From the NCBI GenBank assembly GCA_021161465.1, contig JAGHAM010000019.1, forward strand, positions 1 to 39,014: 39,014 nt of DNA, given 5' to 3'. Positions 10,945 to 16,590 of this stretch are shown here, in pieces (positions within the stretch are counted from its first letter, which is position 1; every line of letters starts with the position of its first letter). A model generated the notes under the pieces. It ran no database searches. It saw nothing but the letters and a program-made list of their open reading frames with translations, and was not told where the DNA came from. Made by a program: the position numbers and the translations under genes. The DNA comes from Candidatus Iainarchaeum sp. GTDB taxonomy: Archaea; B1Sed10-29; WALL01; JAGHAM01.

Positions 10945-10959
10945 TTTAAGGTAGGTCTA

Positions 10960-14003
<3,044 letters not shown>

Positions 14004-14031: not shown

Positions 14032-14122
14032 ATTGCGCTCCGGAGCACGACGGCGCGCTCGTTGTTCATATCACGATTTTGCTCGCGATACTCATACAAT
14101 AAAAATGAATGGACCCACTGGG

Positions 14123-14169
14123 ATTCCCCGTCCGCAGCTGCGAACCTGGTCGGAATTACTTCCGCATTT
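14123..14169 (-). other. Candidate T-loop intron of tRNA-Ala (47 nt; junction ambiguous within the T-loop)
   Basis: T-stem arms CTGGG/CCCAG are separated by TTCAAAT plus 47 extra nt; the insert contains hairpins CGGAA-GTAA-TTCCG and GTTCGC-AGCT-GCGGAC. Confidence 0.8.
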
Positions 14170-14228
14170 ATTTGAACCCAGGACCTCTCGCGCTCTTGAA
14201 CCGTGCGCTTGAGCGAAGCGAAACGCAC

Positions 14229-14250
14229 AAAGCGTTAACCGATTTTGCGG
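14229..14250 (-). repeat. 22-bp direct repeat copy 1 inside the tRNA-Ala intron
   Basis: AAAGCGTTAACCGATTTTGCGG (plus strand), identical to 14288-14309. Confidence 0.95.
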
Positions 14251-14287
14251 CCACACCTGGTGCTCTCACGCGTAGCGTGAGACACCT

Positions 14288-14309
14288 AAAGCGTTAACCG
14301 ATTTTGCGG
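14288..14309 (-). repeat. 22-bp direct repeat copy 2 inside the tRNA-Ala intron
   Basis: Identical to 14229-14250, offset 59 nt. Confidence 0.95.
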
Positions 14310-14678
14310 TTATGCAAGGCGAGCGCTCTTCCAGCTGAGCTATGGGCCCATCCTAACAGACCTGTATATTTCGATTTCTTAGGGTTTTGTAAAGGAGGTG
14401 ATCTAACCGCAGGTTCCCCTACGGTTACCTTGTTACGACTTAACCCTCCTCACAAGGCTCGGATTCGAATTAGCCCAAAGGACTAAACCTCATCCAGGCC
14501 TCACTCGGATGGTTTGACGGGCAGTGTGTGCAAGGAGAAGGGACGTATTCACCGCGCGATAATGACACGCGATTACTAGGGATTCCATCTTCATGAGGGT
14601 GAGTTCCAACCCTCAATCCGAACTACGCAACGGTTTATGGGTTTGGCTTCTCCTTTCGGAGTCGCATCCTATTGTCCG

Positions 14679-15347
14679 TTACATTGTAGGCCGCGTGTAG
14701 CCCAGGAAATTCGGAGCCTCAGCCGTCCTGAAAATCTTCCTACTCGGATGCCATTTAGGATGACACAAAAAAATCATGCTGAGAAAGCACTTAACGTCGT
14801 TTTGCCTATATAAGCTTACGACATGTGAGCCATCCTTCCTATTGTGGCGTCTCGGCTTCAGGTGCATGCTCTGAAGCGAGTTGTAGACAAAGTTGATGAT
14901 ATCATAGGATTCCATCTCAAGACGGATCCTTAGATACCTACCCTTATCTAATTCTAGCCACCCCTCTGCATCGAAGAGACCACCAAGGAAAAAAACTTGC
15001 TTACTATCTGCAACTATTGGTGCAGATTGAAAAGTTTTGTTTCCTCGTTTTATGCCATATCCAACTGTTAAATCTTCCACCAGCTTTTTAGACCTCACAG
15101 CACATTTCCATACATTCGCACTGCGATCAAAAAATACTGACGGTTTATATCCTAAGGATTGGAACGATGTATACAGAAATTTAGCAAAAGGCTTAGTTGC
15201 TGTGAAAGCAAGGACGCGATTTGCATTTCTTTCTACATGTCCATCTCCAAGGATGTAACCAGCTAGATATGCTTTTCTCTCTTCTGCATAGGGCAGATTT
15301 AACCCCCACCAAAAATTACTGATGGAAAGTTTAAATCTGTTTTCAAT
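14679..15347 (-). CDS. LAGLIDADG homing endonuclease, two motifs; start codon uncertain (open frame to 15362, no in-frame ATG in the N-terminal part)
   Basis: My translation upstream of the listed 14679-15098 ORF stays open in the same frame: ...ERKAYLAGYILGDGHVERNANRVLAFTATKPFAKFLYTSFQSLGYKPSVFFDRSANVWKCA then VRSKKL... Motif 1 is YLAGYILGDGH, motif 2 is FFLGGLFDAEGW. Confidence 0.85.
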   Translation of the reverse strand: MENRFKLSISNFWWGLNLPYAEERKAYLAGYILGDGHVERNANRVLAFTATKPFAKFLYTSFQSLGYKPSVFFDRSANVWKCAVRSKKLVEDLTVGYGIKRGNKTFQSAPIVADSKQVFFLGGLFDAEGWLELDKGRYLRIRLEMESYDIINFVYNSLQSMHLKPRRHNRKDGSHVVSLYRQNDVKCFLSMIFLCHPKWHPSRKIFRTAEAPNFLGYTRPTM

Positions 15348-15383
15348 AGGGGTTTCCGAGATTCATCAGATTTTCGCGGACGT
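14718..15383 (-). mobile_element. 16S rRNA intron encoding a LAGLIDADG homing endonuclease (ends +/- a few nt)
   Basis: 16S conserved sequence ...GGTAGGTCAGTAT is separated from GCTCCGAATTTCCTGGGCTACACGCGG by about 666 nt. Intron ends pair (GTCC..GAAAATC with GATTTTC.GGAC), with a TCAG/CTGA 4-bp helix beside the junctions, as in an archaeal BHB. Confidence 0.9.
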
Positions 15384-15479
15384 ATACTGACCTACCGTCG
15401 CCCGCTCCTTCCTCTGGTTTATCACCAGCAGTCCCCCTAGAGTGCACCTCCTCAAACAAGAAGGTTAGCAACTAGGAGC

Positions 15480-15512
<33 letters not shown>

Positions 15513-16181
15513 ACCTCACGGCACGAGCTGACGGTGGCCATGCACTACCTCTCAGCGTGTCAGGTAAGCCCTTCGGACTGACCATCATTCTGCTGTCTTC
15601 CCTGGTGAGTTGTCCGGCGTTGAATCCAATTAAACCGCAGCCTCCACCCCTTGTGGTACTCCCCCGCCAATTCCTTTAAGTTTCAACCTTGCGGTCGTAC
15701 TTCCCAGGCGGCTGGCTTAACAGTTTCCCTCCGGCACAGCATAACCTCGTGGGTTATGCCACACCAAGCCAGCATAATTTACTGCCAGGACTACCCGGGT
15801 CTCTAATCCGGTTTGCTCCCCTGGCCTTCGTCCCTCACCGTCGGGTACGTTCTAGTTGGACGCCTTCGCCACCGGCGGTCCTCCTGGGATTATAAGATTT
15901 TACCCCTACCCCAGGAATACCTCCAACCTCTCCCGTCCCCAAGCCCAAAGGTCTCCCTAGCACTTCCAGACGATTAAATCGCCGGATTTCACCAGGGACT
16001 CTTCAGGCAGGCTACGGACGCTTTAAGCCCAATATACGCGAACACCACTCGAGCTGCTCGTGTTACCGCGGCGGCTGGCACGAGTCTTACCCAGCCCTTA
16101 TTCATGGAGCTTTTTACACTCCACAAAAGACTCCGTGAGGAGTCACTTGGAGTCCCCTTATCACGCTTTCGCGCATTGTAA

Positions 16182-16212
<31 letters not shown>

Positions 16213-16590
16213 ATGGTCCTTGTCTCAGTACCATTCTCCGGGCTCTTGCTCTCACAACCCGTATGGATCTTAGGCTTGGTGAGCCATTACCTCACCAACA
16301 ACCTAATCCACCGCAGACTCATCCTGGAGCGCCCGAAGGCTTTCAAAAATGGGACGTTCCAGTGCCCATTTTCTATAGGATATTAGCCTCAGTTTCCCGA
16401 GATTATCCCCTACTCCAGGGTAGATTATCCACGTGTTACTGAGCCGTACGCCGAGTGCCGAAGCACTTTGACTTGCATGGCTTAGTCGAACTCCAAAAGC
16501 GGTATTCTCCAGCAGGATCAACTGGAATTTTATTGGCGGGTCCACTTTTACATGGTCCCTAAGAATTTCTCTTAATACAGGCCTGCATCG

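Follow-up and report, generated by a model that had tools for sequence, protein, structure and literature searches.

All 40 complete tRNA genes that we recovered from Candidatus Iainarchaeum sp., a 976-kb, 93%-complete, fragmented Diapherotrites-related MAG, are interrupted (40/40), and the most frequent site of interruption is the T-loop. Together they carry about 80 introns (~2.0 per gene), with 35 at position 59/60, 28 at 37/38, 14 in the D-loop and 3 elsewhere; the D-loop and other-site counts rest on loop length and comparison with the same-family genome G001, partly by eye. We consider it very probable that the T-loop inserts, of which the genome has at least 35, are genuine EndA-type (BHB) introns at 59/60, which would be removed by EndA and would have spread by recent transposition. 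The only EndA found in the genome is an α-type enzyme of a kind that has been regarded as narrow in its specificity.

The Twice-Interrupted tRNA-Ala(UGC) Gene of the rRNA Spacer

In the window (the whole stretch of DNA that was analyzed, 39,014 nt), the genes for 16S rRNA (14393-16528, minus strand) and 23S rRNA (10959-14003, minus strand) are separated by a spacer that contains a tRNA-Ala(UGC) gene, likewise encoded on the minus strand (14349→14110). An earlier, sequence-only reading had reduced this 240-nt gene to a 73-nt tRNA by taking out 120 nt of intron at 37/38 and 47 nt inserted into the T-loop, and both the exon sums and the stem pairing agree with it. Exon 1 (14313..14349; tRNA positions 1-37, with the anticodon TGC), exon 2 (14171..14192; positions 38-59) and exon 3 (14110..14123; positions 60-73), all on the minus strand, add up to 37 + 22 + 14 = 73 nt and rebuild a standard tRNA with a fully paired acceptor stem (7/7), anticodon stem (5/5) and T-stem (5/5). 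The strict BHB described for the 37/38 intron (14193..14312, minus strand), which contains the repeat module AACCGCAAAATCGGTT...ACGCTTT, is exact, with the helix CTTG/CAAG, the bulges CA|T and AG|C and the inner helix AACCG/CGGTT. For the T-loop intron (14124..14170, minus strand), the junction is indeed ambiguous from the gene alone, as had been stated, but the orthologs in the rRNA spacer fix it at 59/60, as TTCAAA|…|T. Likewise, no strict BHB is visible here, but a relaxed one is present, in which TTC is paired to GGG by three pairs, two of them G·U, with the bulges AA|T and AA|T. It is thus supported that an essential spacer tRNA has two introns, one of which is non-canonical and sits in the T-loop. 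An intact second copy of this tRNA, which the same reading had named, along with a missing spliced product, as grounds for calling the locus a pseudogene, was sought with RF00005 and BLAST, and neither turned up an intact tRNA-Ala(UGC) at another locus of the genome. Run on the window with introns allowed, ARAGORN detected no tRNA, and RF00005 missed the tRNA-Ala gene even at E ≤ 10.

The orthologous spacer tRNA-Ala has an uninterrupted TTCAAAT loop in G002 (same order) and reads TTCAAA|15 nt|T in G001; inserts of 13 nt and 33 nt are found in G004 and G006, respectively. Across the wider class, an insert of 36 nt is present in G015, and the loops of G011 and G014 are intact. The genes for tRNA-Val, Cys and Gly(TCC) carry T-loop inserts in the genome under study, and their G001 orthologs have the plain seven-base loops TTCGAAT, TTCAACT and TTCAAAT. 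Since the ortholog loops all agree on 59/60, the mature Ala loop is TTCAAAT. A T-loop intron in the spacer tRNA-Ala, which had been thought unusual, is not so for this genome, where 35 of the 40 complete genes have one, nor for the lineage, where four other members of the class have one in the same gene at differing lengths. Among the relatives, T-loop introns were found in Ala and Arg-TCT of G001, Gln-TTG of G002, six genes of G004 and Ala of G006. They are rarer there than in the genome under study, though these are minimum numbers because selected regions were examined.

The Splice Motif of the T-Loop Introns

In a set of 45 T-loop introns (35 from the genome itself and 10 from relatives), tRNA positions 54-57 are paired with intron positions -6 to -3 in 147 of 180 cases, as against 72±6 in shuffled introns (maximum 91 in 2000), and this register scores above every neighboring offset. 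Four pairs, in the full 3-4-3 register, are formed by 19 of the introns, with Gln-CTG as an example of a strict 4-bp motif, three pairs by 22, and two or fewer by the remaining four; the introns of Asp and both Glu tRNAs fit given a 4-nt 3′ bulge. The 37/38 introns of the same genome are equal in score (85/100 compared to 42±5 shuffled). The facing bases also covary: A57 meets U(-6) 16 times and C once, and G57 meets C(-6) five times and U never, although common descent within the intron families inflates these counts. In tRNA-Cys, the sequence TGC at 54-56 is matched by GCA at intron positions -5 to -3. By their pairing, the T-loop introns are predicted to form the same bulge-helix-bulge as the canonical ones, in a relaxed form in the window's gene. 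We also observed that the tRNA-Cys gene (C10:763-845) has the loop TGCGACT, with a G55 that replaces the near-universal T and pairs with the intron end.

In minimum-energy folding, 10 of 46 T-arms and 2 of 19 anticodon arms with canonical introns formed the central helix in register; as the canonical introns fail equally, isolated minimum-energy folding is uninformative for the BHB. An alignment of 14 T-loop introns by MAFFT combined introns of two architectures and was left out of the structure analysis. In many of the larger introns, the 5′ splice site is immediately followed by an additional hairpin that does not belong to the textbook BHB.

These features suggest how removal might proceed. 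In the pre-tRNA, the T-stem would serve as the outer helix, the pairing of 54-57 with intron positions -6 to -3 would give the central helix, and the bulges 58-59|+1 and -2,-1|60 would contain the cleavage sites. The T-loop (54-60) and the anticodon loop (32-38) have seven bases each and are closed by a five-pair stem each. Because both seven-base loops offer four helix bases, two bases before the cut and one after it, 59/60 is the geometric counterpart of 37/38; one enzyme could therefore serve both, which would explain the dominance of the T-loop site. Position 59/60 is already known as an archaeal intron position (PMC4090602). A single α-type EndA could thus cut the anticodon loop and the T-loop with one geometry, and RtcB would join the exons after the cuts. 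The introns would have transposed into T-loops and also into anticodon and D-loops. It is the splicing, the α4 assembly of the enzyme, the tolerance of relaxed motifs and the route of transposition that we infer here.

A Single α-Type EndA

The genome encodes RtcB and one PF01974 protein, a 170-residue α-type EndA with both Pfam domains. Aligned to the M. jannaschii enzyme (1a79), it is co-linear from residue 3 to residue 169 with just one gap, of one residue, which leaves no room for a CSL or an ASL as judged by sequence length rather than structure; no CSL- or ASL-like insertion was seen in this alignment. Tyr, His and Lys are invariant across the alignment at what we take to be the positions of the catalytic triad of 1a79. 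The protein presumably forms an α4 homotetramer. The PF01974 search of the 93%-complete genome found no second (β) subunit and no fused three-unit EndA. The subunit type, whose inspection the sequence-only reading had proposed, is, as far as this search detects, the single α-type of M. jannaschii, and the tie that it drew between T-loop introns and broad-specificity endonucleases does not extend to this genome, where the sole EndA found lacks a CSL/ASL-like insertion.

In the literature, α4 enzymes are classed as narrow, and efficient removal of relaxed introns is attributed to (αβ)2 and ε2 enzymes only (PMC6379350, PMC4033280). If α4 enzymes are as narrow as published, they should act poorly on relaxed motifs. 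The intron set speaks against an EndA that cuts the strict BHB alone. Either the specificity of the enzyme exceeds what its architecture would imply, or the motifs come close enough to strict under cellular conditions, or the assembly lacks a partner. That an α-only EndA without CSL or ASL gained a relaxed specificity by another route, and thereby released a runaway spread of 59/60 introns until every tRNA gene was interrupted, is a possibility we put forward tentatively, as somewhat short of probable. A rival to removal by the α-type EndA alone is the reading in which the introns are real and their removal needs more than this enzyme, whether a second subunit that is missing or has diverged, an accessory protein or a different nuclease. 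The published narrowness of α4 enzymes speaks for such a factor, as do the relaxed motifs of about half of the T-loop introns, and a second subunit could be missing from a MAG of this completeness. However, the members of the order with a match have exactly one EndA each, whereas the same search gives two in several other archaea, and the 19 of 45 T-loop introns with the full 4-bp helix fit the 3-4-3 register as they stand; accordingly, we regard an additional factor as unlikely.

The tRNA Inventory

The inventory was assembled by BLAST, with the G001 tRNAs and the intron sequences themselves as queries, from the stretches around the matches, so that genes may be missed; part of the complete genes were found with an acceptor stem of 7/7 and a T-stem of 5/5 required as a search condition, and the other genes with T-loop inserts showed these same pairings. 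No tRNA-Trp was found among the stretches around BLAST and RF00005 matches. Among the complete genes, nearly nine in ten (35/40) have a 59/60 intron, ranging in length from 12 to 321 nt, and it is absent only from Tyr, Pro-TGG, Leu-TAA, Asn and initiator Met. The three introns at other sites are found in the variable region of Tyr, within the anticodon stem of Lys-CTT and, probably, before the anticodon stem of Pro-GGG. Four introns interrupt Lys-CTT and probably also Pro-GGG. A tRNA with the anticodon TAT (Ile-UAU; C40:53222, minus strand) was observed with introns at 37/38 and 59/60.

These figures bear on the idea that the T-loop inserts are retained in the mature tRNA as extra hairpins at the elbow. 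In its favor, the short inserts (12-16 nt) form compact hairpins, for example AGC-UUCG-GCU in tRNA-Val, whose intron has 13 nt, but the lengths reach 321 nt, the T-loop could not fold with 54-56 paired to the insert end, 37/38 introns are present in many of these genes as well, and the orthologs have normal 7-nt loops. We therefore consider retention highly improbable, and removal as introns remains the preferred reading. Even less credible is that the genes are pseudogenes or an artefact of assembly or binning: some contigs do stop inside repeated tRNA introns, but each isoacceptor is represented by one copy and none is intact, the stems are fully paired, the genes are spread over many contigs, and T-loop introns also occur in independently assembled genomes of the same order.

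Partial genes (halves) of Ser(TGA), Ser(GGA), Thr(CGT) and Thr(TGT) were found at contig ends. Several of the ends of contigs C2, C5, C20, C25, C32 and C34 stop inside Ser or Thr tRNA genes; the repeats common to the introns of these tRNAs probably break the assembly there.

At E ≤ 0.001, RF00005 gave eight matches genome-wide, all of them to interrupted genes (8/8). In a survey of 149 archaeal genomes of at least 85% completeness, done with one filter set and with the best 30 candidates scored per genome, so that counts saturate at about 30, this genome had the fewest RF00005 matches (6) because its tRNA genes are broken up. The next lowest counts at high completeness were 9, 12, 12 and 14, in G104, G138, G093 and G012, respectively; these genomes may hide similarly interrupted tRNA sets.

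Families of Near-Identical Introns

The T-loop introns group into families, many of them near-identical in unrelated tRNAs. In the first family, the 60-nt intron of Gly-TCC is identical to that of Gly-GCC (60/60), its first 50 nt are those of the Phe intron (50/50), and its start is also common to introns in Ile, Met, Leu, Ser and Arg. Lys, Asp, Glu, Ala-GGC, Ser-GCT and others carry introns of a second family (ATAAGG...CCTTATAAGCC). The third module is the one seen in the window's 37/38 intron; it occurs in the anticodon introns of Ala, Ser and Thr, with a related form in D-loops. BLAST with the intron families gave 48 matches in the genome itself, and those checked were in, or directly beside, tRNA genes; in G001, the same search at E ≤ 0.01 gave none. 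The near-identity of introns in unrelated tRNAs points to a recent multiplication by intron transposition, a process described, with shared intron sequences, for Thermoproteales in work cited in PMC4090602.

T-loop-intron-like sequence was also seen directly downstream of tRNA 3′ ends, outside the mature gene, at Ala-GGC, Glu-CTC and Ile-GAT, with the downstream copies at C21:8156-8210, C35 after 69850 and C16 after 28254. The third module together with a hairpin recurs in the window (14193-14312, minus strand), in the D-loop of the G002 tRNA-Arg-TCT (L271) and at L221, L230 and L219; it is also present in another family of the order, and the changes in its stem look compensatory. Judging from its sequence, it is possibly a structured mobile RNA element.

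Comparison with Known Systems

Among the closest parallels are the multi-intron tRNAs of Thermoproteales (Sugahara 2008 and Fujishima 2010, as cited in PMC4090602, PMC4033280 and PMC8450103), which, as far as those citing papers relate, share with the present set BHB and relaxed BHB introns at canonical and other sites, including 59/60, several introns per gene, and similar introns across unrelated tRNAs. By the tRNAscan-SE 2.0 averages, Thermoproteales have 0.84 introns per gene and archaea 0.21 (PMC8450103); at ~2.0, the genome studied here is far denser. It further differs in the predominance of 59/60, in genes that probably have four introns, as against a published maximum of three per tRNA (PMC4033280), and in a lone α-type EndA instead of the (αβ)2 enzyme with a CSL. 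ARMAN-1/2 (Micrarchaeota; PMC12397907, PMC6379350) are likewise DPANN archaea with non-canonical tRNA introns, but their EndA is a three-unit, 390-residue ε2 enzyme with an ASL, in contrast to the single 170-residue unit without one here. Korarchaeum cryptofilum (PMC4033280) has non-canonical introns and an EndA without a β subunit; the korarchaeal α2 enzyme has a specific loop, whereas no such insertion was seen here. Cyanidioschyzon merolae and algal nucleomorphs (PMC4090602, PMC9602550) have introns in the D-, anticodon and T-arms of one tRNA, and the C. merolae endonuclease is reported to be without CSL or ASL (PMC6379350); theirs, however, is a eukaryotic, heteromeric Sen-type enzyme. In the literature searched, whose coverage left most subscription papers outside, we found no report of T-loop introns in DPANN or Diapherotrites.

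An Intron in the 16S rRNA Gene

The 16S rRNA match of the window covers 2136 nt, compared to the 1478 positions of the model, with an inserted stretch of ~660 nt. Inside this insert, an ORF (14679-15098, minus strand) codes for a LAGLIDADG protein (PF14528, E = 2.5e-06), and we read the insert as an rRNA intron with a likely homing endonuclease. The 16S match of G001 has a similar gap. A search of the ORF against viral contigs gave no matches.

Significance

Annotation of tRNAs breaks down in genomes of this kind, since a standard tRNA model recovers just eight of the 40 or more genes here, and such genomes may be wrongly judged to be incomplete or poor in tRNAs. In the accepted picture, non-canonical tRNA introns are tied to endonucleases built of two different subunits or with special loops (PMC6379350, PMC4033280). 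The densest tRNA introns known to us, together with an α-type EndA alone, would break this subunit or loop rule; alternatively, they would mean that the geometry of the loop, and not the position in the tRNA, is the deciding factor. In either case, the genome offers a recent, still recognizable case of intron transposition.
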